DNA of 32,209 nucleotides, taken from positions 1 to 32,209 of the IMG/VR virus record IMGVR_UViG_3300034064_000156; one strand, 5' to 3'. A program made the translations under genes and the position numbers. A model generated the notes under the pieces. The model saw nothing but the letters and a program-made list of their open reading frames with translations, had not been told where the DNA came from and did no database searches. Position 1 is the first letter of the stretch, and each line of letters opens with the position of its first letter. Of the stretch, positions 14,443 through 30,125 are shown in pieces. The stretch comes from a virus.

Positions 14443-14461
14443 AATCCAAATCAATAATAAC

Positions 14462-15133: not shown

Positions 15134-15136
15134 TTG

Positions 15137-15144
15137 TATATTTG
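15137..15144 (+). promoter_or_regulatory. -7 promoter element TATATTTG
   Basis: Matches TAnnTTTG; start codon of the exonuclease (15163) lies 19 bases downstream. No clear -33 TTG at the ideal distance, so it may need an activator or be weak. Confidence 0.55.
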
Positions 15145-15162
15145 ACCATCAATCAATATAAC

Positions 15163-15933: not shown

Positions 15934-16151
15934 GCGAATTAACATTACTACAAAAGGCAATGCGAATTGTCGAAGAACATGAACCAAGTTTGTTTGATGT
16001 TCACACCAATAAGGGTAGGGATTTTATTCGTGCCATGTCTGAATTACTTAATGTGGAACGTGAGCAAATGAAAGCACCGCAATGCAAAGCAGGTGAAGGC
16101 ACAACAGTAATAGTTGATTTAGTAACAGGTAAAACATACAAGCCACAATGA
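15930..16151 (+). CDS. Small hypothetical protein
   Basis: 73 residues, helical N-terminal half (LLQKAMRIVEEHEPSLFDV, RDFIRAMSELLNVEREQM) and a short beta end (GTTVIVDLVTGKTYKP). ATGA-type overlaps with both neighbours. Not recognised. Confidence 0.6.
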   Translation: MSELTLLQKAMRIVEEHEPSLFDVHTNKGRDFIRAMSELLNVEREQMKAPQCKAGEGTTVIVDLVTGKTYKPQ

Positions 16152-16600
16152 ACGCACTTTGTACACTAATCATTTGGGGGGGCATGCACTATGCAACCCC
16201 TGCATGGATGGAAAAACAGATTCCCGCTTGGATGTGGTCACGCTATGAAATACACATAGCACCATATGGTACTAAGCTATCCAGTATCGCAAACGTAGAC
16301 CCGAAGACAACTGCACTCATAGGATTTAGCGCAGGAGGTTTGGATGTGCTGCGTAACTACTCACAAGATTACGCAATGGTCGTACTGCTTGATCCATCAA
16401 CTCGCATGGATTATGCAAAGATTGCATATACCACTAACACCTACATGTTCTACAATCAATCCAACTGGGGCGGCACTAACAAGAGCATGGATGATGTAGC
16501 TAACCAAATCAATGCAACAGGTGGTAAGGCAGTAAGCATGAAGCTTAAGCACAACGAAATTCCCGCATACTTTTTTAATCACTTTAAAGGCGACTACTAA
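16148..16600 (+). CDS. Minimal alpha/beta-hydrolase-like protein
   Basis: 150 residues. TTALIGFSAGGLDVLR forms a beta-strand, nucleophile elbow, helix unit (G-x-S-x-G, S61). A hydrophobic strand then ends in VVLLDPST (D82, candidate acid), and LKHNEIPAYFF gives a candidate catalytic H135. That is the order Ser-Asp-His of lipases and esterases, but in about half the usual length. It may be a cytosolic esterase or deacylase; no signal peptide is clear. Sits in an early operon of tiny genes, so it is more likely to act on host metabolism or a nucleotide or tRNA ester than on cell lysis. The triad is inferred from motif order. Confidence 0.6.
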   Translation: MNALCTLIIWGGMHYATPAWMEKQIPAWMWSRYEIHIAPYGTKLSSIANVDPKTTALIGFSAGGLDVLRNYSQDYAMVVLLDPSTRMDYAKIAYTTNTYMFYNQSNWGGTNKSMDDVANQINATGGKAVSMKLKHNEIPAYFFNHFKGDY

Positions 16601-16875
16601 TGAAAGCAAAAGACAAAGCATGGCAACTGTACTCGAACTATTTTGATATAGTCGAAGGCGAAAAGCAAGAAGGTAACTTAGTTGAGGTGCATATTAAAGC
16701 TTTGAACGCTGCGCTGTACTGCGTAGATGAAGCCATAGTAAATGCACCTACCGACATAGTCAATGACTTTGAAGGTACAGGTGAATACTACTCTGTAAAA
16801 GCCTACTACCAGCACGTAAAAAGTGAAATACTAAAACTGAAAGCACATGACAAGAAAACAACTGCAACAGTTTAG
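16600..16875 (+). CDS. Small hypothetical protein
   Basis: 91 residues, helical (KAKDKAWQLYSNYFDIVEGEK, NAALYCVDEAIVNAPTD, VKAYYQHVKSEILKLKAH). TAATG junction with the hydrolase-like gene and a 29-base overlap with the next gene. Resembles small acidic phage proteins that I cannot name. Confidence 0.6.
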   Translation: MKAKDKAWQLYSNYFDIVEGEKQEGNLVEVHIKALNAALYCVDEAIVNAPTDIVNDFEGTGEYYSVKAYYQHVKSEILKLKAHDKKTTATV

Positions 16876-17017
16876 TGTTGATGAACTGCGAATGCTACGA
16901 CATAGATACCTAGCAGATACTCCAAAAGGAAGCACTGAATGTTGCCGGGTGAATCGCATCATTCACCGAATCAATCAAGAAATAGATTTTCAAAAAACGT
17001 TTTTAATACATGAGTGA
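16847..17017 (+). CDS. Short hypothetical protein (56 aa)
   Basis: 56 residues, basic and helical, with CC at 32-33. It starts inside the end of the 91-residue gene and overlaps the next start by 8 bases. Coding is supported by gapless operon spacing: without it 16876-17009 would be the only hole in the operon. Confidence 0.6.
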   Translation: MTRKQLQQFSVDELRMLRHRYLADTPKGSTECCRVNRIIHRINQEIDFQKTFLIHE

Positions 17018-17237
17018 AACTAAAAAAGAAACCGCGCTGCGGACACTTAGCAAGTCATTACGCAAAAGATTCCAAGGCAAAACGGTTAACATATCTTGGA
17101 TTGAACTGGATGCGTTTATGATGAAAGCGCAAACACGCGAATTGGAAAACATAGTTAACGCTTACAATGACGGGTATAAAGATGGTGAAACAGGAACACC
17201 AAACAGAACACAAAATGAAAGCAACACTAACATTTAA
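17010..17237 (+). CDS. Small hypothetical protein
   Basis: 75 residues; basic helical N-terminus (ALRTLSKSLRKRFQGKTVNISWIELDAFMM) and a polar Thr/Asn-rich end. Overlaps both neighbours. Not recognised. Confidence 0.55.
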   Translation: MSETKKETALRTLSKSLRKRFQGKTVNISWIELDAFMMKAQTRELENIVNAYNDGYKDGETGTPNRTQNESNTNI

Positions 17238-17427
17238 CCTGCCTGATGATGCAGTAGAATACGAATACACTTTGAACGCTGCCCGGTATAAAGATGCACT
17301 TAGCGAGATTATGAGCATGATGCGCAAGAAGGATAAATGGAATGATTACGACGGCATGACTGCAGAAGTAGTCGCGCAGTTGTATGATGAGATGTGTGAA
17401 ATCGTGGAAGGATTAGAATTAAACTAA
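17215..17427 (+). CDS. Small hypothetical protein, last gene of early arm
   Basis: 70 residues starting at the ATG at 17215 (MKATLTFNLPDDAVEYEYTL). The upstream ATG at 17167 is inside the previous gene and gives an unlikely polar extension. The opening MKATLTFNLP followed by an acidic helix is a widespread small phage protein type of unknown role. Confidence 0.6.
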   Translation: MKATLTFNLPDDAVEYEYTLNAARYKDALSEIMSMMRKKDKWNDYDGMTAEVVAQLYDEMCEIVEGLELN

Positions 17428-17457: not shown

Positions 17458-17703
17458 TCATTGCTGCACCTTGCGAAAGCCATGCTTCCAAAGAAACCTA
17501 CCCAGTGCTTCACCTTCCGCATCAACCTTTTCCTCACTCCACTCAGGCTGAATGTGATGAAGGTATTCATGAATTAAGACAATGAAATAGCGCAGCGGTG
17601 GTAGTGTAGGGTCTATCTCAATCACATTATCACTATACAACCCATCCGCTTTTTCGCGTCCAAGTTTGCGCTGAATAACTTTAGGATGTGGTTTGCGTTT
17701 CAT
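17458..17703 (-). CDS. Small zinc metallopeptidase-like protein (HExxH)
   Basis: 81 residues. LIHEYLHHIQPEW places HEYLH at 45-49 (two His ligands and the catalytic Glu) and is followed by EEKVDAEGEAL, where an acidic residue could be the third ligand. The preceding DNVIEIDPTLPPLRYFIVL fits the beta-strand and helix layout of minimal zincins (ImmA or SprT-like). Last gene of the late arm, facing the early arm across 30 bases. A processing or host-repressor-cleaving role is possible but unproven. Confidence 0.6.
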   Translation of the reverse strand: MKRKPHPKVIQRKLGREKADGLYSDNVIEIDPTLPPLRYFIVLIHEYLHHIQPEWSEEKVDAEGEALGRFLWKHGFRKVQQ

Positions 17704-17793
17704 TATCTTTGCGACATAGTGTAGTGGTTCATTGCATTATTGTTTTTGTTATAAATTGATACAATCAGGCTCCAAACGTGGAGCCTTTTTGTT
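17704..17793 (+). ncRNA. Small RNA unit on the + strand (promoter-like element plus terminator), copy 1
   Basis: TATCTTTG (TAnnTTTG) at 17704-17711 abuts the start codon of the zincin gene on the other strand; about 60 bases on is a terminator: AGGCTCC AAACGT GGAGCCT (17767-17786) followed by T5. Transcript about 75 nt, no convincing reading frame. The segment 17718-17735 looks like a tRNA D-arm, but no T-arm or acceptor stem is present. The same hexaloop and layout recur at 27963-28044. No good -33 TTG at 19 bases. Confidence 0.5.
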
Positions 17794-18832
17794 ATCTAAT
17801 CTTACCATTGACAATCCTGTAATTACTCACTTCAAAATCTCCAGTATCCATTACGCGCACATGTGCAAACCCATGATGGTGTTTGTTGATGGGCATGTAA
17901 TCAGGGTGCAGCTCACATAGACAGGCCACGCTCCAACACGTTGTTATCTTGCCATTGATGTTAGGCTCTGTATGTTCACTTGCTTGGTGGTGGTGTCCAC
18001 ACAATGCGCTATCCTTTGCTCGCAAGAACAAACCGCGTGCAATGTTTACGGGACTAAATACCGATGCTCCCAGTTCATGACCATGTAATATGGTCAACTT
18101 GCCCGCGTGTATTATCTGCTTATCAGGAATAAATGTGATGTTGTACTTATCCAAGTGCATGAGTGATTCAAAGTTGAACTCATCCATCCCTAACAAATCA
18201 GGTGCATTGCGCATGATGTAGTGATCATAACGCACATCGTGATTACCGCACTTGTAATAGATGGCAGCATTCGGGAAAAGCTTGCGTAGCGTTTGCAAGA
18301 ATTGCCTGGTCATTAGCACTTCATGCCCGAAGTTTCTTTTACGCGGGTCTTTCTCAAAGCGACTGATTGCATAGAAGTCTATGATATCACCATTAAGCAG
18401 GATAGTATTAACCTCATTCTCCAAACCATACTTCAATGCTAACGTCAATGCCTGTATGTTATGATACGGCACGTGTATATCCGAAAGCAGAAGTATGTTA
18501 TTGTGATTAATTGGAAGCTTGAATGGTTTATAGTTCGCCTCCTGTGATGGTGGCAGGTCTAGCGGGTTGCTTTGTTCAGGCATCAACTCGTTTACCATAT
18601 TGCCGAAGTCGGTAAAATGGTTTTCTAGTTTGCTTAAATTACCCTTTGCCTGCGGTTTAACGGGTGAATGTGGTGCAAGGTTATGTCTTTTGCGCCAACT
18701 GAAATACAATCGCTCAAATGAGCTGTATTGCATTTTAATTTGGTGCTTATTCATGGCAGCACGTAGCCGTGAAGCTATCGAGCCTGTGCCTTCATGAACT
18801 TCTTTGTAAACCTCAAAGTATTCACCTTGCAT
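17792..18832 (-). CDS. Calcineurin-like metallophosphoesterase with N-terminal DNA-binding-like region
   Basis: 346 residues. All five metal-binding motifs are present: DIH (D118, H120), NGD (148-149), GNHD (196-199), HGHE (250-253) and GHHHQ (279-283). Residues 1-50 (SIASRLRAAMNKHQ, YSSFERLYFSWRKRHN) look like a small helical nucleic-acid-binding region. Probable Mn2+-dependent phosphodiesterase or nuclease acting on DNA or a nucleotide; the substrate is not determined by the motifs. Downstream of the lysis genes in the late operon. The stop lies 2 bases from the end of the + strand terminator. Confidence 0.8.
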   Translation of the reverse strand: MQGEYFEVYKEVHEGTGSIASRLRAAMNKHQIKMQYSSFERLYFSWRKRHNLAPHSPVKPQAKGNLSKLENHFTDFGNMVNELMPEQSNPLDLPPSQEANYKPFKLPINHNNILLLSDIHVPYHNIQALTLALKYGLENEVNTILLNGDIIDFYAISRFEKDPRKRNFGHEVLMTRQFLQTLRKLFPNAAIYYKCGNHDVRYDHYIMRNAPDLLGMDEFNFESLMHLDKYNITFIPDKQIIHAGKLTILHGHELGASVFSPVNIARGLFLRAKDSALCGHHHQASEHTEPNINGKITTCWSVACLCELHPDYMPINKHHHGFAHVRVMDTGDFEVSNYRIVNGKIR

Positions 18833-18837
18833 AGTAG

Positions 18838-19164
18838 TTATTTATTGCCCCTGATATACCCGGCTAACTCCGCAAGATTGGTGCTAATGGTCAAGTTCTG
18901 TGACGCTATCACATCAATCTTCTTTTCTAGCTTATCAATGGCTTTGTTCTGTTCTTCTTTCATGGTATTCAACTTAGTATTGAATTCATCTTTGGTGTCT
19001 TTAAGTGATTCTGCTAGCATAGTTACCTCGCGTTTATGATATGATTCTACTTTGCCAAGTGCGCTGGATACTTTGACCACATCGCGCTTTAATGCGTAGT
19101 ACAAACCCGTTAAGGACACAGCACCACCAATGATTGTTATAATATCTCTCGGTTGAACATCCAT
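18838..19164 (-). CDS. Holin-like or coiled-coil membrane protein
   Basis: 108 residues: one hydrophobic segment near 8-26 (IITIIGGAVSLTGLYYAL), then a long coiled coil (VESYHKREVTMLAESLKDTKDE through DKLEKKIDVI). The pattern resembles XhlA/BhlA-like holin accessories in reverse order. Position directly after the spanin-like genes suggests a lysis role, though a tail role cannot be excluded. Five bases separate it from the next gene. Confidence 0.5.
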   Translation of the reverse strand: MDVQPRDIITIIGGAVSLTGLYYALKRDVVKVSSALGKVESYHKREVTMLAESLKDTKDEFNTKLNTMKEEQNKAIDKLEKKIDVIASQNLTISTNLAELAGYIRGNK

Positions 19165-19166
19165 TT

Positions 19167-19607
19167 CTATAAGATTACAAAGTATAAAGTTGAAACTGCA
19201 AGCGCACTAATACCTACTGACAGCACCACGTTGTGTGCTATTAGTCTACGGTTGCGCTTCTTAAGGTCTTTTATCTGTAGTTCTTTCTCCTGTGCTATTG
19301 CCTTCTCTATGCTTTGCTTGTTATCGTATATCTGTGCTAATGTCTCGTAACTGTTGGCCTGTATGCCTGTGATTTTAGAATAGTAATGCGTCTTGAGTTT
19401 TTCAAGTTGGTATAGTGAATCTATTTCCATGCTCGTTTGATACCAGTACATCATGCTAGTGTAATTCAGATTCATCAGTTGCACCTCGTAAGTCGTAAGT
19501 TTTGGAGTAAAATCCAGACTTGAGGAGGCTGTCGGATTTTTTGAGCGTTGCGCGAAACTGACGATCGGCAGTAGCATCATCAGAATTAAGAATTTGGTAT
19601 ACGTCAT
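19167..19607 (-). CDS. Lysis-cassette protein with signal peptide and C-terminal membrane span (spanin-like)
   Basis: 146 residues. N-terminal signal peptide ending FAQ (about 1-20, no lipobox Cys), a helical middle with coiled-coil character, then a C-terminal hydrophobic segment (about 125-146) after a basic stretch (KKRNRRLIAHN). N-terminal export plus C-terminal anchor is the layout of a unimolecular spanin, but the lipid-anchoring Cys is missing. It overlaps the previous gene by 152 bases in another frame, as Rz/Rz1 pairs do. Confidence 0.55.
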   Translation of the reverse strand: MTYTKFLILMMLLPIVSFAQRSKNPTASSSLDFTPKLTTYEVQLMNLNYTSMMYWYQTSMEIDSLYQLEKLKTHYYSKITGIQANSYETLAQIYDNKQSIEKAIAQEKELQIKDLKKRNRRLIAHNVVLSVGISALAVSTLYFVIL

Positions 19608-19875
19608 TTCGGTAGTATTGATTTGTTACATCTTGCAACTGAATAATCGTATCGCCGCGCATAGTTAAACTATCTATTTTGGCATACAAGTTATTTGCTA
19701 TTGCGTTATTTTTTTCAATCGCACGGTATAATGAATCATTGATAGACTCTAGTCTGTCAACTGCAGGTGAAGGTGCAGGGGTATTGCAACTTTTAAACAT
19801 GACAAACACTAGTAATGTAGTTACAACAACTGCACTAGCTATCAATATGCGCTTGTTTCTTATTGATTGTTCCAT
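19456..19875 (-). CDS. Inner-membrane spanin (Rz-like)
   Basis: 139 residues: basic start, one membrane span at about 10-27 (ILIASAVVVTTLLVFVMF), then a periplasmic, coiled-coil-type region (VDRLESINDSLYRAIEKNNAIANNLYAKIDSL). This is the architecture of the inner-membrane spanin, and the overlapping partner gene and adjacent lysin support it. Overlaps the lysin gene by 16 bases. The C-terminal 50 residues are encoded by the same DNA as the start of the next gene. Confidence 0.6.
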   Translation of the reverse strand: MEQSIRNKRILIASAVVVTTLLVFVMFKSCNTPAPSPAVDRLESINDSLYRAIEKNNAIANNLYAKIDSLTMRGDTIIQLQDVTNQYYRNDVYQILNSDDATADRQFRATLKKSDSLLKSGFYSKTYDLRGATDESELH

Positions 19876-20435
19876 CTCGTTATGTGTATTGACTTGTTCA
19901 ATGGTCTTATCTTAACTAGAACACCATCACCCCTGCGGCTATCTCTATCACCACGATCATTGGTGTTGCCTTCGATAGTGCGTACTGAATACTCGCTAAT
20001 CTTATCTACTATTCCCGTATGTCCGATGGCCTTATACCTGTTTGTGTTTTTCCAATGACTATAGGACAATGTCATTACCAGTACATCACCCGGCTTATGC
20101 GATTGATAGAACCTACCATCAGTAAAGATTACATCCTTTTTGTTGTAGCACGTAGGTGACCACCCTGTGACCTTGGCCTCAACACCACACTCATGGAATA
20201 TGGCACGCACAAAGAAAGCGCACCATTGATAGGTGGGCTTCCAACCTACTTCGCGCATGAGCCGTTCAAAGTAACGGTCATCAAAGCCCATATTGTTACC
20301 CCCTTTCTCCCTAACACCAACGTGTGCATAGGCTACAAGCCTTACACAATAACCGTCATTAGCGTGCGCAGTATGAATAGGAAGGCAGCAAAGTAAGCAA
20401 AGTACAACAGCAGATATAAAGAGATTTTTTGCCAT
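19860..20435 (-). CDS. Endolysin, CHAP/NlpC-P60-type amidase with signal peptide
   Basis: 191 residues. Signal peptide about 1-25 (MAKNLFISAVVLCLLCCLPI then HTAHA). Catalytic fold of a papain-like peptidase: QWCAFF with C72, KPGDVLVM, GHTGIVDKI with H139, then IEGNTN with E155 as third residue. Cleaves peptidoglycan peptide bonds from the periplasm, exported by Sec and so possibly independent of a holin. The start is fixed by the signal peptide, although it overlaps the upstream membrane gene by 94 bases. Confidence 0.8.
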   Translation of the reverse strand: MAKNLFISAVVLCLLCCLPIHTAHANDGYCVRLVAYAHVGVREKGGNNMGFDDRYFERLMREVGWKPTYQWCAFFVRAIFHECGVEAKVTGWSPTCYNKKDVIFTDGRFYQSHKPGDVLVMTLSYSHWKNTNRYKAIGHTGIVDKISEYSVRTIEGNTNDRGDRDSRRGDGVLVKIRPLNKSIHITRWNNQ

Positions 20436-20755
20436 GTAGTTAGTGACGTTTTAAGTTCTTCTTTGATGTCGCGTGAATAGATTTCCCGTTGCAATGAGCG
20501 GAAGTTGAAGCGTATACCCATAAACACAATGAAGTTGGCGAAGACCATGATAAGACCTGCCAGGATTACATACTGGATGTACTCTGTGCTTATCAATGCA
20601 TCACCAAAATATTGGTAACTGAGTGTACCGCTTACACTAAAAATTAAGAAGGCAATCGGTATAGACCAAAAGCCGTCGAATAACTCTAGGTTGTAACGCA
20701 GCTTTTTAAGAGCCTCGTTATTTTGACTTGTTTTTGTCTGCTTCTTTGTTGCCAT
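20342..20755 (-). CDS. Three-span membrane protein, holin candidate
   Basis: 137 residues from the ATG at 20755 (an upstream ATG at 20788 gives a longer form overlapping the 40-residue gene). Hydrophobic segments near 29-50 (WSIPIAFLIFSVSGTLSY), 65-85 (YVILAGLIMVFANFIVFMGI) and 112-133 (LYLLLYFAYFAAFLFIL). Lysine-rich N-terminus. The position directly before the lysin makes it the best holin candidate. Its last 94 bases are shared with the lysin start in another frame. Confidence 0.55.
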   Translation of the reverse strand: MATKKQTKTSQNNEALKKLRYNLELFDGFWSIPIAFLIFSVSGTLSYQYFGDALISTEYIQYVILAGLIMVFANFIVFMGIRFNFRSLQREIYSRDIKEELKTSLTTWQKISLYLLLYFAYFAAFLFILRTLMTVIV

Positions 20756-20840
20756 TGGTACGTAATTTAAATGAAAGCTCGCGTTCATAGCGTCTCAATC
20801 TTTCGGTGTATTCTTGCTTTAGTGTCTTCTTATCACTCAT
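20718..20840 (-). CDS. Short basic hypothetical protein (40 aa)
   Basis: 40 residues, highly charged helix (QEYTERLRRYERELSFKLR). The ATG overlaps the stop of the connector gene (ATGA at 20837-20840), and its end overlaps the membrane protein gene. Junction style supports translation. Unknown role. Confidence 0.5.
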   Translation of the reverse strand: MSDKKTLKQEYTERLRRYERELSFKLRTNGNKEADKNKSK

Positions 20841-21406
20841 GGTATACGATTAATGATATTACGTGAGTAAGTAGGACGGAATGAAGTGGCCGTGTTGCCC
20901 GTGCTGAACTGATAGTTAAGAGTATTTGTCACATCCGTCCGTGGTGATCTATCAGGCCATGTAGCAGTTGAGTATTCCGGGAACAAACTTGAGTTAGCGC
21001 ATAGGTAATCGACTAACAAGGTGGTGTAGTGTTCCGCGTTTTGCCTTGCACGGTCTATCATATCCTTCATCACAAGGTCACTTACCGCTACGGTGTCTTC
21101 GCTTTGGCGTTGTACTAGCGTGCCATTGTCCATACGATACGATAGGTTAGGCATAAGTTCCACCATAACCCACCACAGGAGCATCTTTTGAATGTAATCC
21201 TCAAGTAATACTTGATAGTTGCCCGATATTGTGTTAGCGGCTACATCTGCTTTAATCTTGTTTAACAAATCAGTTCCCAAAAATGGAAGCAGCCACTTAT
21301 CCTGTGCAAGATATACGGCAGGATAGATAAGGTTAGGGTCAACACTACCATTTACGGTGGTGTACTTCTTGACAAAGTTTTCGGATATTAATAGTACTTC
21401 AGGCAT
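20837..21406 (-). CDS. Head-tail connector-like protein
   Basis: 189 residues. N-terminal motif NLIYPAVYLAQDKWLLPFLGTDLLNKI and the helical centre (LLEDYIQKMLLWWVMVELMPNLSYRMDNGTL) fit a family of Bacteroidota phage proteins (DUF6712-like) that lie next to the portal and resemble head-closure or adaptor proteins. Located 8 bases after the portal. Adaptor role inferred from place and helical content. Confidence 0.6.
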   Translation of the reverse strand: MPEVLLISENFVKKYTTVNGSVDPNLIYPAVYLAQDKWLLPFLGTDLLNKIKADVAANTISGNYQVLLEDYIQKMLLWWVMVELMPNLSYRMDNGTLVQRQSEDTVAVSDLVMKDMIDRARQNAEHYTTLLVDYLCANSSLFPEYSTATWPDRSPRTDVTNTLNYQFSTGNTATSFRPTYSRNIINRIP

Positions 21407-21414
21407 AGTTGTGA

Positions 21415-23397
21415 TTATTTGTTTGCGAATCTTGGATTATCAGGTAGGAAACCTTCATAAGGCATATCTCGTGGCTCCTGTGCTACCTTCGGATTGTTGC
21501 GCACTTTATACCCGGCTTTCTTCACTCGCACATCCATGGCTTCGCGTATATCTGGATTAGTTAGATCTAAACCAAAACCTTTTGCACTAGCAAAGGTCAT
21601 CTTCCTCCACACGTGGCCACATGCCCCTCCGCCCTTGTACAACCACACCGAATATTTATCAGCCCCTCGCGGCCCCCATCCCTCATTGACTATTTGCTTG
21701 CCCATTTGCATGATATCTTCTTTGCGATATAGCTTATCGGCTGCAATCATCTTACGGCAAAACTCACGTGAGTTAGCTTTAATCTCACCGCTGTATTTGT
21801 AGCGTGTATAGAACTTTACATCATCAATGGTTTCGTCTTGCGTAGACTTCGCATTAGGTCGCGCAGTACCTGTGCTTGTAGCAAAGTTGTGCGCTTCTAA
21901 ACTTTCATTGTCTGCATCATCCGTATCGTAGTCAACATCGTACTCATCAATCAATACCCAGTCTTCTTGCGGGTCTTCACCTAATGCAATCAATGCATCT
22001 GCTACTTTGTTATCATCAAAGTCGGCAGCTACTTTTTTTTTTTCGTCACTCATTATGACTTCTTGCGGCTGCAAGCTACCGGGCAATACATCGGCAAAGA
22101 TTGCGTCAACCGTTGCAGGTGGTAACGTTGGGAATGCAGCTTGAACAATTGCCTTAGCACTTGTCACAGGAACCGCACCCGCAGCACTTTGCATTACGAT
22201 GTCAACAAGCGATGTAATCTGCGCACCATTCAAAGCAGTAGCAGCAACATCTGCCGTAGTACCTGTTGCGCTTGCATCGGTTACAACAGATGTTTGTTCT
22301 GCTACAAGTGGTGTGTTTGGCACAATCTCAAAAGAAACACCCGGCATTTGATTACTCAATAGTTCGGTAATGCTCTTATCAATTAGCGTTTGATATGGCT
22401 CAATGACTTGCTTGTTGAATATCTCAAGTCCTGTGGTCATTTCATCCTTGTTACTTCCGAAGCCTGATGTTTCGCGTATACCGAAAAGAAGTGGCGTAGT
22501 AACACGGTGTGCTGTGATTATCTTTTGCGTTGCGGTAGTATCCATCAATTGATACTGCTTGTCCGCATCATTGACAGGGAATGGTGTAATCTCAGTCTTA
22601 GGTTGATCACGTTCGTTAAAGAACATTACCACCTTGCCTGCATTACGCGCACCACTCATCTTGTTCTCCCAGTCCATCATCATTTGCTGCTTCTGCTCAG
22701 GCGTTGCTTGCCCGTTGTAGAAGTTGATAATGGTTGAAGGGAATAAACCGTTTGAGATTTGGTTAATGTGGAATATAGATATCTGCTTATCTAACTCAAT
22801 GTAGTTAATCGCACTCCAGTAATCAGGGCGTGGATATACATCGCTACCTGTGTAAGTAAAGCACCAATAGATTTGGCGCGGTTCTTCATTACGTGTAAGG
22901 TAATTGTACTTTGGAATGAATTCGGGCGTGTTCTTTTTCTTGCGTGTGTTTGACCAATCGTAGCTGTGGAATATTCCTATCTCACTATCATCATCCTGAT
23001 TGACCGCAATACGACATTCTTCAAATGGTATCGGGTTTAACTTGCTAATTACTGTGCGATCATTAGACCAAATCACTTCTATAAAGAAACCACCAAACAA
23101 CTTCAAGTCATGTGCGGCTGCATAGGTCAAAGTGTTTACATCGAGTGCGTCAAGTTCCGCTTGATATTGTTCTGACTTGATACCCTTCCCGGCTATCATA
23201 TCACCAATGGCTACAACGAGCGAACCGTGTACTGGTGATTCGTGCGCAAGGTCACGGAGGTATTGCGGGAAATCATTTTGGTCACCGTAGTTAACCCAGC
23301 CTTTGCGGTCTACTTTTTCAGCATCACTCTTAGCTACATATTCACTAAGCTTCAAGCTAACTATATTCGATTCTTTATGCTCCATAGATAATGTCAT
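21415..23397 (-). CDS. Portal protein fused to a C-terminal head-morphogenesis-like domain
   Basis: 660 residues. Residues 1 to about 360 are portal-like (SEYVAKSDAEKV, WVNYGDQNDFPQYLRDLAHESPVHGSL, IWSNDRTVISKLNPIPFEECRI, MMDWENKMSGARNAGK, TAHRVTTPLLFGI). After a low-complexity Ala/Thr/Val region, the C-terminal part (about 530-610: SREFCRKMI, YRKEDIMQM, GGGACGHVWRKM) recalls the Cys/His pattern of Mu-F-type minor head domains. At the boundary the message has eleven A in a row (22033-22043, codons 452-455), directly after an internal ATG (22051-22053). The portal ring is the packaging channel. Overlaps the preceding gene by 23 bases. Confidence 0.8.
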   Translation of the reverse strand: MTLSMEHKESNIVSLKLSEYVAKSDAEKVDRKGWVNYGDQNDFPQYLRDLAHESPVHGSLVVAIGDMIAGKGIKSEQYQAELDALDVNTLTYAAAHDLKLFGGFFIEVIWSNDRTVISKLNPIPFEECRIAVNQDDDSEIGIFHSYDWSNTRKKKNTPEFIPKYNYLTRNEEPRQIYWCFTYTGSDVYPRPDYWSAINYIELDKQISIFHINQISNGLFPSTIINFYNGQATPEQKQQMMMDWENKMSGARNAGKVVMFFNERDQPKTEITPFPVNDADKQYQLMDTTATQKIITAHRVTTPLLFGIRETSGFGSNKDEMTTGLEIFNKQVIEPYQTLIDKSITELLSNQMPGVSFEIVPNTPLVAEQTSVVTDASATGTTADVAATALNGAQITSLVDIVMQSAAGAVPVTSAKAIVQAAFPTLPPATVDAIFADVLPGSLQPQEVIMSDEKKKVAADFDDNKVADALIALGEDPQEDWVLIDEYDVDYDTDDADNESLEAHNFATSTGTARPNAKSTQDETIDDVKFYTRYKYSGEIKANSREFCRKMIAADKLYRKEDIMQMGKQIVNEGWGPRGADKYSVWLYKGGGACGHVWRKMTFASAKGFGLDLTNPDIREAMDVRVKKAGYKVRNNPKVAQEPRDMPYEGFLPDNPRFANK

Positions 23398-23764
23398 TTG
23401 ATATTACTTCGCTAGGTACATTATAGAACTGCTCGTTATCTGTCAACACAACGTAGCCACGTTGTACAACACCCACAACACTACCAGTCGTAGGGTTAAT
23501 ATTGCTAGAACTATTTTGTCCATATACGACATAGCGATACCGCCCCGCTAAGGTAAGACCTACGGTCGTTACTGTGAGCTGCGTTATACGCACATTTTCC
23601 AACACTACGGTTGCAACCTGTGCAAGTTCTTCGCCCGTTGTGCTATTCTCTTCGTGTGTGATTATGATAAGATAATGAGTGAACGCAGTAGCAAAGTACT
23701 GGCGTGCCTCATCTAATGAAAGAAATACGGTTTGATTCGCTGTGTTAGTAGTTAGATATATCAT
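23375..23764 (-). CDS. Small head/neck structural protein
   Basis: 129 residues from the ATG at 23762-23764; the frame is open to 23833 but that reading would include the terminator hairpin and a Cys/Leu-rich extension unlikely for a virion protein. Beta-rich sequence with MIYLTTNTANQTVFLSLDEAR at the start, a pattern I recall from short Bacteroidota phage virion proteins. Lies between major tail protein and portal. Confidence 0.55.
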   Translation of the reverse strand: MIYLTTNTANQTVFLSLDEARQYFATAFTHYLIIITHEENSTTGEELAQVATVVLENVRITQLTVTTVGLTLAGRYRYVVYGQNSSSNINPTTGSVVGVVQRGYVVLTDNEQFYNVPSEVISNDIIYGA

Positions 23765-23776
23765 GCTTATTGATTT

Positions 23777-23807
23777 AAAAAGGGGCAGTACAAGCACCGC
23801 CCCCTTT
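23777..23807 (-). terminator. Terminator hairpin after the major tail protein gene
   Basis: On the - strand: AAAGGGGGC, about 12-base loop, GCCCCTTTTT. Stem of GC-rich bases followed by T5, between the 23843 stop and the 23764 start. Would reduce read-through from abundant capsid/tail mRNAs into portal genes. Confidence 0.6.
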
Positions 23808-23842
23808 ACACACAATGAATACAAAAACAACAAGACAAAGTC

Positions 23843-24385
23843 TTAGTAAGCAGGGCTTACAGTAATACCTGCAAAGTTGTCAAATGGTACAGAGGTATAC
23901 GGCTCAAGGTGTACAGCAGGTGCGAGTTCTTCAGCAACTGTTGTAACTTGGTAACCCATCAAATCCGCTTTCTGCGCTCCTGATTGTACAGTACCTGCGG
24001 TCAACTGTGAGCCTTCGCCCGCACCAACCAACAAGATTTGGTCATCATTAGTACGTACAAAAACAATCATTTTAGCCTTTGCTACGTTCAAGAACTCATT
24101 ACGCATGTCTTGATTCAACTTACCAAATGTCCATCCAACTTCTTGAGAAAAGTAAAGTGTACCTGTTTCCAAGTTTTTGTTTACTGTCTCAATGTAAGAA
24201 CCGCTGTTGCGGAATGGAACGTAACGGTAGATAGTAGCCGTAGGCAATCCGTCTACTTCGCCATTAGTACCACCATAAGTGATACCACTCTCGAAGTCTT
24301 CGTAGTTAGCAATAAGTACTTCCTTAACCCCGCCGATACCTTCGAGGCATCCGAGGCTGAATCCTGTGGTTAATTCACAAGCCAT
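23843..24385 (-). CDS. Major tail (tube) protein, probable
   Basis: 180 residues. Begins MACELTTGFSLGCLEGIGGVKEV, and has SGSYIETVNKNLETGTLYFSQEV, KLNQDMRNEFLNVAKAKMIVFVRTNDDQILL and GYQVTTVAEELAPAV near the end. This set of motifs matches a recurring Bacteroidota phage family, and the final G-Y-x-V/L-T element resembles that of tail-tube proteins. It is flanked by its own hairpin terminators and lies right after the capsid gene, so it is probably highly expressed. Could alternatively be a capsid accessory protein. Confidence 0.6.
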   Translation of the reverse strand: MACELTTGFSLGCLEGIGGVKEVLIANYEDFESGITYGGTNGEVDGLPTATIYRYVPFRNSGSYIETVNKNLETGTLYFSQEVGWTFGKLNQDMRNEFLNVAKAKMIVFVRTNDDQILLVGAGEGSQLTAGTVQSGAQKADLMGYQVTTVAEELAPAVHLEPYTSVPFDNFAGITVSPAY

Positions 24386-24400
24386 GTTTTATATAGTTTT

Positions 24401-24424
24401 AAAAGGGGGCTGTTACACCCCCTT
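24401..24424 (-). terminator. Terminator hairpin after the major capsid gene
   Basis: On the - strand: AAGGGGG, 8-base loop TGTAACAG, CCCCCTT, then TTAAAA. Lies 9 bases after the capsid stop and 15 before the next start. Confidence 0.65.
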
Positions 24425-24433
24425 AGTTATTAA

Positions 24434-25330
24434 TTATGCTCCCCAGTAGGTGATGTCTTCACCAACTGCAATCTGTGCTCCGAGGTAGAAACGTGCGCCG
24501 TAACGTACGTTCTGTGATCCATCCAAGTTCTGCATGTCCAAGATGAACACTTCGTTCATTTGGTTTTCCTGCCATGTTCCAAGCATCAAGTTGCTAGGCT
24601 GTGCGAAGATTATATTGTTTGCAGTCATACCCGGACAAACGTAGATATCGTACATACCTACGAATCGACGGTTAACCTCTGGTCCACCTGTCAAGTACCA
24701 TCCGTTGCCAGCAGCGATTTGCGCTTGCATGTAAGCTTCCCATGCAGCCTGACCCATGTACAATGCAGGCTTTTCAGCAGCACCCTTCACAGCAGAGTTT
24801 GCAGTATTGATGATGTCCCAAATGGTAGCGATAATGTTAGTAGCGTCCAAAGCACCTGAACCCGCAGATACAGCATTTGAACCTGCTGCCTTGATCAAAG
24901 TCTCGAAACCATCGTACTGTCCTGCAGTAGCGTTAACACCTGACCACATGACAGTTTCGTTTGCAGCAGCAATACCACCAACCAAACGGCCTATGATAGC
25001 GTCTTGGATTTGTGTGTTCACACGGCCTGACATTACATCGGCAGTAGTCCAGTCAATGAAGAAATCTTTCTTACAGATTTGACGCTGTACCTGGAATTCT
25101 TCAAGAGTCAAAATGCGCTCAGTCAAAGTGATCGTGCCTGTTGGCGTGAAATCACAAGTGCCTGCGGCAAATGTTACGGTGTCATCAATTTTACGTACTA
25201 CTGATTTGTAAGGTACGTTTGGCTTCATTGTCACGTACTGTGCAGAAACGTTTGACAAGAGTGCCTTTGCTACGATTTCACCAGCTAATTCACCTGCATA
25301 GGTGGTGGTGAGTGAAGTTGTTGTTGGCAT
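24434..25330 (-). CDS. Major capsid protein
   Basis: 298 residues. Compact capsid-type sequence: helical N-terminus, then CDFTPTGTITLTERILTLEEFQVQRQICKKDFFIDW, IIGRLVGGIAAANETVMWSGV, YDGFETLIKAAG and a C-terminal block ending GARFYLGAQIAVGEDITYWGA. Similar in layout to HK97-fold capsid proteins of Bacteroidota phages. Preceded by scaffold (25360) and protease (27355) and flanked by a terminator, as expected of the most abundant virion protein. No canonical HK97 cross-link motif noticed. Confidence 0.75.
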   Translation of the reverse strand: MPTTTSLTTTYAGELAGEIVAKALLSNVSAQYVTMKPNVPYKSVVRKIDDTVTFAAGTCDFTPTGTITLTERILTLEEFQVQRQICKKDFFIDWTTADVMSGRVNTQIQDAIIGRLVGGIAAANETVMWSGVNATAGQYDGFETLIKAAGSNAVSAGSGALDATNIIATIWDIINTANSAVKGAAEKPALYMGQAAWEAYMQAQIAAGNGWYLTGGPEVNRRFVGMYDIYVCPGMTANNIIFAQPSNLMLGTWQENQMNEVFILDMQNLDGSQNVRYGARFYLGAQIAVGEDITYWGA

Positions 25331-25359
25331 TTTTAAATAAAATTATGAGGTGAATTAAT

Positions 25360-25953
25360 TTACTTTTTTGCGCGAATGCTTTCCATAAAGTCGCTGAATG
25401 AGTTACCATTCGATGCAACCACAGGAGCGGCATTCTTTTTAAATTCTTGTGACTTTACAGAAGGTACAGCCGGGGCTTTCTTAACTGAAGCAAGTTCAGC
25501 TTTTACGGATTCGGCATCCTTCTTAGCGTTTTCAACTGCGGCAGCTAGTTCAGTCTTTTCGACTTCAAGTGCAGCAATACGTTCAGACAATTGACCGATT
25601 ACGGCAACGAGGTCTTCGCTGCTCATTTCAGTAGATTGTTCTTCGCGCTCGATTTCGGCAATAAGGCCATCTTCGCCTACTACCACTTTAGTTACACCGT
25701 CTTCTAGGATGTATTCACCCGCAGGTACAGGAACTGGGTTGCCGTCAGCATCTAGTGTGAAGATGTCAACACCTACAACCCACTCATCAGCTGTTGAGTA
25801 GATTTTGGTACCATCAGCAAGCGTGCCCTCTACGGCAAACTTTACTTCGGTAGCTGCTTCAGTTGTTTCTTCTTCAAACTTGATACCCAACGCAGATGGT
25901 TCAATGCCGTACTTTGTGAAGACTGCTTTGATTTGATTTTTGATATCTGACAT
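25360..25953 (-). CDS. Scaffolding protein (or protease-cleaved assembly domain)
   Basis: 197 residues from the ATG at 25951-25953 (MSDIKNQIKAVF); the longer form to 25998 adds an unlikely 15 residues that cross the + strand promoter. Acidic N-terminal beta region (YSTADEWVVGVDIFTLDADG), then a long Ala/Glu/Lys coiled coil (LVAVIGQLSERIAALEVEKTELAAAVENAKKDAESVKAEL), a Pro-containing linker and a basic C-terminal helix. Size, coiled coil and position just before the capsid gene are typical of phage scaffolds. Confidence 0.7.
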   Translation of the reverse strand: MSDIKNQIKAVFTKYGIEPSALGIKFEEETTEAATEVKFAVEGTLADGTKIYSTADEWVVGVDIFTLDADGNPVPVPAGEYILEDGVTKVVVGEDGLIAEIEREEQSTEMSSEDLVAVIGQLSERIAALEVEKTELAAAVENAKKDAESVKAELASVKKAPAVPSVKSQEFKKNAAPVVASNGNSFSDFMESIRAKK

Positions 25954-25987
25954 GTTTGGTAATTTTGGTATAGTAGACAAAACGCTG

Positions 25988-26019
25988 TTTTGTTGCATAC
26001 GCCAAATTGATTACCTTAG
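25988..26019 (+). promoter_or_regulatory. Promoter of the ribbon-helix-helix gene
   Basis: TTTTG ending at 25992, 19 bases, TACCTTAG 26012-26019 (one mismatch to TAnnTTTG). Start codon 26044 is 24 bases on. Points against the late arm. Confidence 0.65.
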
Positions 26020-26043
26020 CGACTGTAAAAAATTACATACATT

Positions 26044-26181
26044 ATGACTACCAAACAAACCATGCCCATGGACACTAAGATTAGTGTTAGGCTCAATGAG
26101 AAACAACTTAAGGTTGTGCAAAAGGCTGCGAAGGCTCACAAGATGAACCTAGCAGAATATGTTCGTGCGTGTATTCTTTGA
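26044..26181 (+). CDS. Ribbon-helix-helix (Arc/CopG-like) DNA-binding protein, 45 aa
   Basis: 45 residues: beta strand KISVRLNEKQLKVV, then helices VQKAAKAHKMNLAEYVRACIL, the classic ribbon-helix-helix size and pattern (strand with alternating residues, two helices). Binds operator DNA as a dimer. It lies alone on the + strand within the - strand head-gene block, with its own promoter and terminator, so it is a moron-like insertion that could repress phage or host genes. Its first ATG is preferred; two more Met codons (7, 9) follow. Confidence 0.7.
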   Translation: MTTKQTMPMDTKISVRLNEKQLKVVQKAAKAHKMNLAEYVRACIL

Positions 26182-26208
26182 CCAATAGGTATAATAAGCG
26201 AAAAAAAG

Positions 26209-26235
26209 AAGGCCCTCGTTTGGGCCTTTCTTTTT
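26209..26235 (+). terminator. Terminator of the ribbon-helix-helix unit
   Basis: AAGGCCC TCGTTT GGGCCTT, followed by TCTTTTT: a 7-bp stem with six-base loop. Marks the end of the + strand unit 50 bases before the stop of the 26285 gene. Confidence 0.8.
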
Positions 26236-26284
26236 AATCTTAAATACCTAAATACTTTCGGTTACACTAACCGCTGCTAATATA

Positions 26285-27349
26285 TCAATAAAATGATTCC
26301 ATACCCGTTTCTAAACTCAACCATTTGCCCGTGCTTTCATTCTTGCCATTAGCAGGTAAGAACTCCATGTAGGCTAGTAGCTTTGCTTCTTCAGTTAATG
26401 ACGGATTGAATGTGAGTGTGCGGTTGATTATGTTGTACGCATTTTCACCACCCGCTTGAAGATTAAGTGTGCTGTCTTCAGTTGGATTTTGACCGATGTC
26501 AATAGTACTACCATACACGTTCATGGTTGTAGGTGTGCTACGTTCACCATTGTACAGTCGATACATCTGCTTGTAGCCTCCATAGGTTTGACCAAAAGAA
26601 TTGATAAGCACTTTGTAATTAAAAGTGTTTGCATCAATGCCATTGATATATACCGTGCTTTTGACTTGTGTTGGGCTTATGTTTTCAATGTCCATAGCAA
26701 TTGATGTGATGTGCGTTTCACCCTTAACAGGTACGATAGGAAATACCCAGCGACAATTCCAAATCATTTCCTGTTCAGTCATGTTAGCAAGCTTCAAGAA
26801 TTCAGCTTTACGCAGTCTACGCTTTGGCGTAATTGCGCCACGACTTGTCCATTTCACAACGGTCTTGCCTGTTGCATCCTTACCTAGTACGCGTGACTTG
26901 TATTGCACGCGCACAAGTGGGTCAACCATATCTTCAGCCACACCATTAACCACCGTTTCGTATGGCTCATATGTGAGGTCTATGCGATCAGCATTAAAAA
27001 ACATATTGCTTTCTACATAGTAAACAGTTTGCCCGGCTACACCACTTGGCGGTTCATGCTTTATCCACTTGCTAGGACAATGCAACTGGTAGCCCTTAGG
27101 TGTCATGCCGCCTAATTGAAAGCTCATGTTGTATAGTGCCATGCTTGCATAGTTGAGCGGATACAATCCAAACAGTTGTGTGTTGGTTGTCTTCTCAACC
27201 GTGTAAGTTATAACGTTTTTGCCTGTGCTAAAATCATTGTTCTCGTACACGACAAAGCCATTAGTGATGCGCGTGTTTATTTGCCCGTTATAGGCTTCAA
27301 ATTCGGGCGGTAATCCTAGCACATCAAGTGCCTTTTCTACGTTTATCAT
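26285..27349 (-). CDS. Structural protein of unknown role (head operon)
   Basis: 354 residues, beta-rich. No known motif recognised; contains EPYETVVNGVAEDMVDPLVRVQYKSR, WTSRGAITPKRRLRKAEFLKLANMTEQ and YKQMYRLYNGERS. Sits between protease and scaffold and starts 5 bases after the protease stop. Could be a decoration, vertex or neck protein. Confidence 0.5.
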   Translation of the reverse strand: MINVEKALDVLGLPPEFEAYNGQINTRITNGFVVYENNDFSTGKNVITYTVEKTTNTQLFGLYPLNYASMALYNMSFQLGGMTPKGYQLHCPSKWIKHEPPSGVAGQTVYYVESNMFFNADRIDLTYEPYETVVNGVAEDMVDPLVRVQYKSRVLGKDATGKTVVKWTSRGAITPKRRLRKAEFLKLANMTEQEMIWNCRWVFPIVPVKGETHITSIAMDIENISPTQVKSTVYINGIDANTFNYKVLINSFGQTYGGYKQMYRLYNGERSTPTTMNVYGSTIDIGQNPTEDSTLNLQAGGENAYNIINRTLTFNPSLTEEAKLLAYMEFLPANGKNESTGKWLSLETGMESFY

Positions 27350-27354
27350 ATGTG

Positions 27355-27948
27355 TTATTTATTGGTTGCTTTGCTTAGTAGTTCATCAAGCTCCATCACC
27401 AATTCTGCTTCGTAGTTTTTAACACCACTCATGGCTACACCTACCTCGTTAAAGAATCCTTCGATGCTGTAACCTTTTATCTTGCCTTCCTTTACGTCAT
27501 CCCATACGTGGTCTTCGTCTACATGCGTACCAATAAACCATGTACCATCAGGCAAATCAGGTAAGCCTAGTTCAATGCTCTTATCATTCTTACCTTCTTT
27601 CAACCATGACTCAACAACGGTCACACCTGTTACTGGTATCTCATGCTGCAAGTTGGTCGTGTGTTGCAGATTCTTTTTAAAGAACTGATGCGCTAACTGT
27701 TGCACGGTCTTCTTTTCAAAGTACACATAGTAGGCTTCGCCCTTATCATCATAGCGAAGTATCTCTTTATCCGGGATGAGTGCAGGGCCGTATAGCATCC
27801 TACGTTCCTCATCCACTTTTGCGAGTTGCATCTTGCTTAGTGCAATCCAGTTCTCTTCTATGGCAGGCGCATCGACTAAGCCCATCGCGGTGATACCCAA
27901 ACGGCCTTCTTCATCAATTACGCATTTTACTACTTTTCTTTTTTCCAT
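27355..27948 (-). CDS. Prohead protease, XkdF-like serine peptidase
   Basis: 197 residues. Family layout of Peptidase_S78_2/XkdF: MLYGPALIPDKEILRYD, then LQHEIPV with catalytic H102, VVESWL with catalytic S114, GTWFIGTHVDEDHVWDDVKEGKIKGYSIEGFF with the conserved GYSIEG at 159-164. Processes scaffold and capsid during head maturation. Next to the scaffold and capsid genes as usual. Confidence 0.85.
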   Translation of the reverse strand: MEKRKVVKCVIDEEGRLGITAMGLVDAPAIEENWIALSKMQLAKVDEERRMLYGPALIPDKEILRYDDKGEAYYVYFEKKTVQQLAHQFFKKNLQHTTNLQHEIPVTGVTVVESWLKEGKNDKSIELGLPDLPDGTWFIGTHVDEDHVWDDVKEGKIKGYSIEGFFNEVGVAMSGVKNYEAELVMELDELLSKATNK

Positions 27949-27962
27949 TTTTCAAAGTTATT

Positions 27963-28044
27963 TATATTTGACACGTTTTCATCATAGCATTGTTTTCAAT
28001 AGGTTTAGTTTCAGAGACCGTCCAAACGTGGGCGGTTTTCTTTT
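27963..28044 (+). ncRNA. Small RNA unit on the + strand, copy 2
   Basis: TATATTTG at 27963-27970, about 45 bases, then ACCGTCC AAACGT GGGCGGT (28017-28036) and a T-rich tail. Same order, size and CC-AAACGT-GG loop as 17704-17793, and a shared CATTGTTTT-like segment. No reading frame. Between the tape-measure stop and the protease start, transcribed against them. A clear -33 element is not seen. Confidence 0.45.
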
Positions 28045-30125
28045 TATCCTATCCTAGATAAGTCTTCAACCTTTACTCTCACTTCTTGTTGACTTGCGAC
28101 ATCACCCGCAAGCACATACGCACGTGGCGTGACTTGTTCAGGTCTATCTTGCAAGAAGGCAGAAGCGAATGGATTAAATTGTGCGGTTTCTGCACCACCA
28201 CCACCGCCGCCACCATCCAATGAAGGGGGTGGATTTTCACTTGTTGCAGGTGGTGTACCTCCTTGGAATTCTTGCTTTGCAATGGTTGCTACGTTAGCAA
28301 TACCCGCAGCGATTGCCGAACCCGCAGCAATGAATGGCTGTGCAGGGAAAAGAATTGTTGCAGGGTTAGCGGCTGCACTTGCAAAGATTGCGTTTGCACC
28401 CTTATACGTGTCAACCGTGGCCTGTGCTATGCTGATTGCCTTTTGTATTTTAAACGCACGTTTTGCGCTTGCTTCATCTTTCTTAGCTAATGCACCAACA
28501 AGCGCACCTATTGAACCTAATGCTTCACTTGTCAATGCAAGCTTTGCATCTTGTACGGCTTTTTCATTCTGTATACGTCTTTCTGCCGATAACTTTTCTT
28601 GATCATCTAATGCCTGCTGATAGGCTGCATCAACTTCTACTGTACTTTGACCCGCCTGTATTGCTTTCTCGCGTAGGTCTAAATACTTGTTGTCAATGGC
28701 AATTATTTCCTGTTGATCAGCAGTAAGATTTTTAGCATCCTGTTCAGCACGTAGTGCGGTGATGGCTGCATCGTAGTCTTCTTCTGCTTTCTTACGCTTG
28801 GCTGCTTCGGCTTCGGCTGCTGCGGTCTTTCTCTTTTCCGCTTCTTCAAACTCTTTTACGTTTTCCTCGTATAGCTGATTGACTAAATCACTTACTTCTT
28901 GTTCTGCTTTTAGTCGTTCTTGGGCTTCTTTTTCCGCTGCCGTCTTAGCTTCAGCTGCTGCCTTTTCCGCTGCAGTCTTAGCATCCGATGCTGCCTTTTG
29001 TGCTGCTGCTTTGTTCTTTGCGTCACGTGCATTCAACAATCCATCACGTGTATTTTCTAAATCCGTTACTGCTTTTTTCGCTGCTTCTGTTGCTTCTTTA
29101 GTTTCCTTTTCTACTTTGGCAGGGTCAAACAATAAGTTTGAAACGGAATCCGTAAGCTTATTTCTAAGATTGCCAACTTTTGCAAAGGTTTCATCAGTAA
29201 TCAAGCCAGCCTTATTCAAGCCTTCGGTAAGCAAATCAACACCTGCTAAAAGAGCAGTAAGTGGTAACGAAACAAAATTTAAAAGCCCTTCTAAAATTGT
29301 CTTGTTTCTTTTAGCCGCATCTATCTGTCCTTGTGCCTGCGCTTCTGTTGTTTCCGCTGTTACTTTTGCTGTAAGTATTGCAAGGTCTAATGCTTCTAAC
29401 TTTTTTTGCAGTATCTGTTCCTCAGTAAAACCTTGTCTTTTTAGTGATTCCTCCTGCTGACCTATTGCCTCAAATTGCTGTTTCGCCTGTGCAGTTTTTT
29501 CTTTTTGTATTTCAAGTTGTTCCTGTTCAGCATCCGTTACACCGTCAACTAAGGTCAATAACTCATCTGCATACACGATAGCAGTGGCAATGGCTGCACC
29601 AATTAAGAATATCGGATTTGTAAGTAGTGCCTTGCCAACTGAACCCAGTGCGCTGCCTATGCCTTGAATGCCTTTGGTAATATCCCCCGGCTTTACATCA
29701 CCAATGTTTTTTGCAAGTAGCTTTGCACCTTCGGCAGCACCTTCAAAGTCAAGACTGGTAATACGTGAGGTAACAAGTCCAAGCGATCCACTAACACGTT
29801 CGAACGCACCACCTGCTTGTGTGCCTACTGCTTGCGCTGCATCCTGAATCTTATCTTTAAGTTCACCCGCTGCCGCACTCAGTTCACGATACTTTTCGCT
29901 ATCGGGTTCTGTGTTGGCTAACTGCGCTTGTAACTCACGTAGCTGTGCCTTAAGTGATTTAGTAGACGTTGCTACTTCTTGTTCAGCAGCTGCTACATTT
30001 TCAAATGACTGCGCACCGCTGTTGATTGCAGCATCTGTCGCTTGAATTTGAACAGTTAACTCTTTGAGATTTTGCTCACTTTCGGTAGTGTCAATTACAA
30101 ACTTCCGTACAATAGGTTCAGCCAT
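28044..30125 (-). CDS. Tape measure protein
   Basis: 693 residues. N-terminal coiled-coil section (TTESEQNLKELTVQIQATDAAIN, SLKAQLRELQAQLANTEPDSEKYRELSAA), a hydrophobic patch (LTNPIFLIGAAIATAIVYADELL), then long Ala/Lys/Glu-rich helices with AEKAAAEAKTAAEKEA-type repeats, and a Gly-rich C-terminus (GGGGGGG near 645). Length and low-complexity helical content are those of a siphovirus tape measure of modest tail length. Its ATG overlaps the stop of the small membrane gene (TAATG). Confidence 0.85.
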   Translation of the reverse strand: MAEPIVRKFVIDTTESEQNLKELTVQIQATDAAINSGAQSFENVAAAEQEVATSTKSLKAQLRELQAQLANTEPDSEKYRELSAAAGELKDKIQDAAQAVGTQAGGAFERVSGSLGLVTSRITSLDFEGAAEGAKLLAKNIGDVKPGDITKGIQGIGSALGSVGKALLTNPIFLIGAAIATAIVYADELLTLVDGVTDAEQEQLEIQKEKTAQAKQQFEAIGQQEESLKRQGFTEEQILQKKLEALDLAILTAKVTAETTEAQAQGQIDAAKRNKTILEGLLNFVSLPLTALLAGVDLLTEGLNKAGLITDETFAKVGNLRNKLTDSVSNLLFDPAKVEKETKEATEAAKKAVTDLENTRDGLLNARDAKNKAAAQKAASDAKTAAEKAAAEAKTAAEKEAQERLKAEQEVSDLVNQLYEENVKEFEEAEKRKTAAAEAEAAKRKKAEEDYDAAITALRAEQDAKNLTADQQEIIAIDNKYLDLREKAIQAGQSTVEVDAAYQQALDDQEKLSAERRIQNEKAVQDAKLALTSEALGSIGALVGALAKKDEASAKRAFKIQKAISIAQATVDTYKGANAIFASAAANPATILFPAQPFIAAGSAIAAGIANVATIAKQEFQGGTPPATSENPPPSLDGGGGGGGAETAQFNPFASAFLQDRPEQVTPRAYVLAGDVASQQEVRVKVEDLSRIG

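Follow-up and report, generated by a model that had tools for sequence, protein, structure and literature searches.

Three conserved small-RNA units in a phage genome, one of them with a linker complementary to early-gene start regions

IMG/VR virus record IMGVR_UViG_3300034064_000156 was analysed over its whole 32,209 bases, referred to below as the window, and this account concerns three short units in it, S1, S2 and S3, each with the build of a small-RNA gene. The genes on the + strand (8154-17427) include the terminase (12539), the exonuclease (15142) and replication-type genes, and - strand genes fill the rest of the window with the tail genes, the portal (21415), the protease (27355) and the tape measure (28044); the arms are called early (+) and late (-) here from gene content alone. 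S1 (17704-17793, + strand) is located where the early operon meets the late operon, and S2 (27963-28044, + strand) between tape measure and protease. Both had been pointed out in an original prediction, and their layout was found as claimed there: a TAnnTTTG box, a body, a hairpin and a T tail touching the next stop. That prediction, which spoke of two + strand units, was right about both and incomplete, since a third unit of the same build, S3 (26202-26284), lies on the - strand. Coordinates of all parts are collected in Table 1.

The S1 box directly adjoins the ATG of the - strand gene 17458-17703 and is followed by a non-coding body and by a terminator hairpin (AGGCTCC-AAACGT-GGAGCCT, 17767-17786), whose T tail runs up to the stop codon (17792-17794) of gene 17792-18832 on the - strand; transcription probably begins near 17717. 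Relatives were sampled as 80 loci fetched via the phosphoesterase gene, most of them from IMG/VR, and whole-genome scans were run on 16 genomes carrying S1. The unit was found at the same place, directly after the phosphoesterase stop codon, in nearly all of the 80 relatives, those cut by a contig end aside. The promoter box, the conserved linker TTGTTTTTGTTATTGATTG and the hairpin with its T tail recur in them, the box being replaced by TATATTTA in a divergent locus (L046) and likewise in genomes G019 and G020. A box next to the start of a - strand gene, as originally described, is what the window has, whereas in many relatives (L042-L065) this small neighbouring gene is missing, a + strand gene ends there instead and S1 is still present. 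The neighbouring gene start is therefore not part of the unit. S1 is also present in a genome that has no phosphoesterase gene (G017). Taken alone the TAnnTTTG box is uninformative, with 31 sites in the window against 34 expected by shuffling; it is informative because it is conserved across relatives, not because of its frequency. A short peptide encoded in S1 was considered and dropped, as one-base indels between relatives, seen informally in the alignment, shift the frame.

The terminator of S1 showed clear covariation. Over 24 distinct sequences, 94% of the cells were paired, double changes numbered 56 against 22 in shuffled data, the covariation score was 0.79 against 0.31, and seven of the eight pairs had changed on both sides; an alignment in which some promoter boxes were cut off was kept out of the pair counts. 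While the stem covaries, the loop core [A/C]ACG is invariant. The 5' hairpin reached a mean z of -2.7 over 45 distinct sequences and was weaker in some clades; it is predicted in nearly all members, built each time from clade-specific sequences (TAGTG/CATTA, GATGTG/CGCATC, CAAGC/GCTTG, TTAG/CTAA). At the level of sequence, then, S1 has its own promoter and its own intrinsic terminator, the -7 box being conserved and the terminator both conserved and covarying. The earlier proposal of small-RNA genes is borne out by this conservation, by the covariation of terminator and 5' hairpin and by the persistence of the unit when the neighbouring gene changes; the hairpins, whose absence from close relatives would have spoken against it, occur in nearly all of the 80 relatives for S1 and in about 35 of them for S2. 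Judged by these patterns, S1, S2 and S3 are real, conserved phage small-RNA genes, present in a large family of Bacteroidota viruses, and S1 is the most strongly conserved of them.

The single-stranded linker of S1, which reads CATTGTTTTTGTTATTGATTG in the relatives, is the reverse complement of the translation-initiation region (TIR) of early genes, start codon included; with the CAT end, its complement reads CAATCAATAACAAAAACAATG, a complete start region. The word CATTGTTTT singled out in the original prediction is real and forms, in S1, the anti-start-codon part of this pairing region. Exact complements of at least 11 nucleotides (nt) to each genome's own linker were counted in the 16 genomes and compared with dinucleotide-shuffled linkers. 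The early strand carried 29 (shuffled 8.2 ± 2.9) and the late strand 6 (7.7 ± 2.6). Just upstream of an ATG were 26 of the 29, against 3.9 ± 2.0 with shuffled linkers (maximum 9; 0 of 300 as high). Since the genomes share ancestry, the scan was repeated at 10 nt with an identical permutation applied to every genome; it returned 58 early TIR sites against 9.6 ± 3.5 (0 of 400 permutations as high), together with a small late excess (16 against 9.1 ± 3.2, reached by 11 of 400). By gene, sites stood before 14462 in 10 genomes, before the exonuclease in 6 of 16 and before the first early gene in 5, the same gene families thus carrying the site in different genomes; in G013 and G021 two tandem sites precede one further early gene. 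When the duplex energy of each genome's own linker was compared over TIR families, those of 8154, 14462, 15142, 8959 and 16600 came out on top (mean z -3.4 to -1.7). The difference between early and late families as groups was weak (Mann-Whitney p 0.09), since no more than a part of the early genes is matched. The S1 linker is thus a conserved unpaired region complementary to the starts of unlinked genes.

The predicted targets in the window are listed in Table 1. For the first early gene the family mean z was -3.35 over 7 genomes, and for 14462 it was -2.8 over 15 genomes. The exonuclease, a target elsewhere, is a weak candidate in the window (13 of 200 shuffled S1 reached as low an energy); it probably starts at ATG 15163, not at the listed TTG 15142, and would be read from a short-leader transcript, because a TATATTTG box lies at 15137-15144 and the relatives have ATGAACAACACACT. 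A target special to the window phage is predicted in the leader of gene 14071-14274, which is absent from the other contigs. Co-variation of S1 with its targets gave partial support at the sequence level. Pairing of each S1 with its own 14462 leader was better than with permuted partners (5 of 5000 as good), and the preference was less clear for the exonuclease leader (161 of 5000), in permutations that ignore phylogeny. Matching indels were seen in G019 and G020 (S1 GTTATTTGATT with leader AATCAAATAAC) and in G016 (S1 GTTTATTGATT with leader AATCAATAAAC); other members of the same clades are without them.

Several observations weigh against early-gene targeting by S1. The linker of the window itself has drifted, with TTATAAATTG in place of TTATTGATTG, and the 10-nt scan gives it no more than a weak enrichment (2 sites, p 0.087); there is none at that length in G015 and G022. 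Gene 16600 displays no cognate preference (3798 of 5000), and all of the cognate-preference permutations, favorable ones included, leave phylogeny out of account. The control with sister phages given below is based on three genomes only, and no consistent -33 promoter element was seen at S1 across relatives. For the window phage, full-length S1 still formed duplexes with the leaders of 8154, 14071, 14462 and 16148 that were lower in energy than those of any of 200 shuffled S1 sequences, and in its 5' hairpin the loop, GTTCATT, is a further match, to the AATGAAC at the first codons of several early genes. The claim for S1 is one that rests mainly on the relatives.

An alternative that follows from the original prediction is cis-antisense action, as by lambda OOP, in which each unit would regulate the late mRNA that it overlaps. 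In its favor, each + strand unit occupies a gap in the - operon and can pair without a mismatch with the 5' leader of the gene behind it, giving strong cis duplexes (S1 with the 17458 gene, -42.1 kcal/mol; S2 with the protease, z -6). The overlap of S1 is nevertheless confined to the gap, neither S1 nor S2 touches a start codon or coding part of a late gene, and S1 persists in the many relatives that lack the opposite gene. Moreover, the conserved part of S1 matches early and not late starts (the 6 late-strand complements at 11 nt against 7.7 shuffled), and the body is the least conserved part of S2. The notion of antisense regulators of late mRNAs accordingly found no support for S1, since it is early mRNAs, from other parts of the genome, whose starts are enriched in its complements; we consider the cis-antisense explanation as a whole unlikely.

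Equally improbable, in our estimate, is that the common word is an operator in double-stranded DNA for a phage regulator, S1 being an autoregulated or decoy site. In favor of an operator, copies of the word lie close to several early genes, and a promoter box immediately precedes the exonuclease leaders. The orientation of the word is fixed, though, with 29 early-strand complements against 6 direct copies of the linker (a strand-swapped count that is not independent of the one above); the 16600 sites fall inside the preceding coding sequence, those of 14462 in an operon gap with no promoter box, and what is conserved around the linker is an RNA structure and a terminator. Least probable of the three is that early leaders share an A-rich ribosome-binding consensus to which S1 is complementary by chance or through avoidance of structure: Bacteroidota leaders are A-rich and the shorter AACAATG is as common before starts in sampled bacteria as in the phages, yet ATCAATAAC before an ATG, present 28 times in the 16 S1 genomes, was absent from three sister phages without S1 and found once in 784 kb of bacterial strands (about 40 times rarer per kb), and composition-matched shuffled linkers never reached the observed count.

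We therefore regard it as probable, though well short of certain, that S1 is a trans-acting antisense RNA that blocks translation of early mRNAs. Each unit would be a stand-alone gene consisting of a host-type TAnnTTTG promoter, a transcript of 70-80 nt and an intrinsic terminator. S1 would be transcribed from its promoter and end at its own terminator, and its 5' hairpin and terminator would keep the U-rich single-stranded linker open. The linker could then bind several early mRNAs at leader and start codon, among them those of gene 14462, of the exonuclease and of the first early gene, with further ones that differ between clades. Such pairing would most likely block ribosome binding, repression being favored over activation, and early proteins might thereby be limited or shut off as infection proceeds, possibly with a helper protein.

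S2 behaves as a presence/absence cassette, found in about 35 of the 80 relatives and replaced elsewhere by a gap of only some 20 bases; in G024-G026, a more distant clade, exactly this position also holds a unit. Its promoter and its GCCGTCC-AAACGT-GGGCGGC terminator are conserved across relatives and its body is not, and in the window its T tail touches the stop of gene 28044-30125. At 10 nt, 18 early-strand complements of S2 were counted against 8.8 ± 3.3 shuffled, 7 of them at a TIR against 2.7; the target scan gave no convincing target, the listed sites being mostly inside coding sequence and inconsistent. S3, present in nearly all relatives, has the loop AAACGA. It follows an inserted 354-aa gene (26285-27349, - strand) where that gene is present, homologues of which occur in only 4 of 19 contigs, and otherwise directly follows the protease. 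A scan as for S1 found no phage targets for S3. S2 may act in cis on the protease mRNA, and S2 and S3 may have host targets.

Table 1. Parts of the three units and predicted S1 target regions in the window
Feature	Position	Strand	Remarks
S1 promoter -7 box, TATCTTTG	17704-17711	+	TATATTTG in most relatives; kept despite unrelated upstream sequence
S1 5' hairpin, ATAGTGTAGTG-gtt-CATTGCATTAT	17716-17740	+	fold z about -4.5 in the window
S1 single-stranded linker (putative pairing region)	17735-17766	+	mean unpaired probability 0.81
S1 intrinsic terminator, loop AACG, T tail	17767-17791	+	covariation
S2 promoter -7 box, TATATTTG	27963-27970	+	conserved in all S2-bearing relatives
S2 body	27977-28013	+	varies among relatives
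S2 intrinsic terminator, GACCGTCC-AAACGT-GGGCGGTTTT	28014-28046	+	hairpin 28014-28039
S3 promoter-like box, TATATTAG	26277-26284	-	TATATTTG in many relatives
S3 body with conserved GTATTTAGGT...TTAAAAAGA	26229-26270	-	
S3 intrinsic terminator, AAGGCCC-AAACGA-GGGCCTT-CTTTTTTT	26202-26228	-	
Predicted S1 target: leader and start of first early gene, 8154-8396	8125-8160	+	duplex -24.4 kcal/mol; 0/200 shuffled as low
Predicted S1 target special to the window phage: leader of gene 14071-14274	14041-14075	+	duplex -23.4; 0/200 shuffles as low
Predicted S1 target: leader and start of gene 14462-15133, beside exonuclease	14436-14468	+	duplex -19.6; 0/200 shuffled as low
Predicted S1 target: exonuclease box TATATTTG, leader, likely true ATG 15163	15137-15170	+	target in 6/16 genomes

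The terminators of S1 and S2 are among the strongest on the + strand of the window. CCAAACGTGG occurs in the window exactly twice, with six near-matches against 1.7 expected, which is only suggestive. The hairpins reported with a loop AAACGT are present, and their loop is more aptly described as the tetraloop [A/C]ACG, with A-T, C-G or an open T.T as the closing position. Terminators with this loop were found in the 16 whole S1 genomes at S1, at S3 and, in four of them, at S2, and nowhere else. That the loop is a general host habit was rejected on four sampled Bacteroidota genomes (the phage's true host was not identified), where 1 of 72 terminators had it; a host search by portal protein gave matches of 30% identity only, in 3 of 395 Bacteroidia. 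Restricted to S1, S2 and S3 in these phage genomes and rare in the sampled Bacteroidota, the loop can be taken to mark this set of RNAs, and perhaps it is read by a protein. The units had been called homologous; the common loop and layout suggest kinship, while the bodies differ and homology is not proven. A more speculative scenario, to which we give rather little weight, is that the three form one paralogous set whose loop is bound by a dedicated phage or host protein and which jointly times the early-to-late switch at the level of translation. Four other viral contigs (L211, L241, L270, L237) also contain isolated units in which TATATTTG and a CCAAACGTGG terminator flank a short body; these units were found by that very pattern, so that the loop there is not independent evidence.

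Other features of the window were recorded alongside. The record ends overlap by 196 bases at 98% identity (1-196 and 32014-32209), and the map is thus circular; such an overlap fits a genome that is circular, or permuted, and occurs in two variants. Flavobacterium phage 11b has a terminase with 48% identity to the one encoded here. Between the divergent arms, at 8070-8123, stand two tandem repeats of 27 bases, imperfect and each containing a TATTTG-like word; this gap is probably the main promoter region. Beside it, the first gene of the - arm (7529-8068) weakly resembles RNA polymerase sigma factors (phrog_1740, E 1.8e-07) and could be a late-gene regulator. The early gene 8959-9498 (+ strand), which also belongs to an S1 target family, has a weak match to sigma-70 region 4 (PF08281, under the curated cut-off). 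A strong GC-rich hairpin, AAGGGGG-CTGTTACA-CCCCCTT, lies at 24403-24424 after gene 24434-25330; it has no proper T tail and recurs in relatives.

If S1 acts as proposed, one RNA of 75 nt, a mirror image of early-gene start signals, lets a lytic-type phage turn off a set of its own early genes. Ribosomes of Bacteroidota work mostly without Shine-Dalgarno pairing, and S1 would be a natural probe of start signals in these bacteria, whose phages are abundant, as well as an RNA tool for selective translational control.

The original statement that the units belong to no known class held up as far as Rfam 15 reaches: at the gathering score it gave no match in the whole window, and at relaxed thresholds only weak sub-threshold matches, none of them convincing, were obtained. 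There was no FopS match among the Rfam hits of S1 and S2. S3 resembles the FopS consensus (RF04319) in layout and words; its score in the window was 21.5 bits, short of the curated 56-bit cut-off, which none of 22 phage records exceeded, and in the reverse test the S3 model matched all 12 FopS loci with 15-29 bits, scores also reached by unrelated terminators in the control genomes. Because it falls below the cut-off and the reverse test stays within background, S3 was not placed in that family. Matches of S1 by blastn to the GenBank phage collection were chance matches only. The exact 19-nt S1 linker had 29 matches when searched in one genome per bacterial or archaeal species, none of them seen with the promoter-body-terminator layout, and a non-exhaustive literature search found no paper on small RNAs of Bacteroidota phages.

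Among known systems, OOP RNA of lambda is similar to S1 in being about the same size, with its own promoter and a terminator at the end of a neighbouring gene; it is cis-antisense to cII with long perfect pairing, whereas S1 would act in trans at short imperfect sites. Whereas S1 has its own promoter and several predicted targets, phages P1 and P7 make their c4 RNA by processing a longer transcript. This c4 RNA measures about 77 nt and, by base-pairing in the region of a phage gene's ribosome-binding site, keeps that gene from being translated (PMC12197685). It thus shares with S1 the phage origin, a similar size and the proposed block of translation by start-region pairing; it differs in belonging to temperate phages, in having one target (ant) in the same operon and in its immunity function. 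VpdS of Vibrio phage VP882, which acts in trans on phage and host mRNAs (PMC12197685), is likewise a trans-acting phage RNA of the kind proposed for S1, but it is Hfq-dependent, about 50 nt long and encoded by a temperate phage of a different phylum. GibS and FopS of Bacteroides are host genes that act on sugar-use mRNAs by pairing with TIRs, and each has a promoter of the sigma-ABfr type, an open pairing region and an intrinsic terminator (PMC11697453). With these S1 shares the promoter type, the short RNA, the open pairing region, the intrinsic terminator and the predicted TIR pairing, and it is set apart from them by its extra 5' hairpin, its putative phage early-gene targets and the [A/C]ACG loop.

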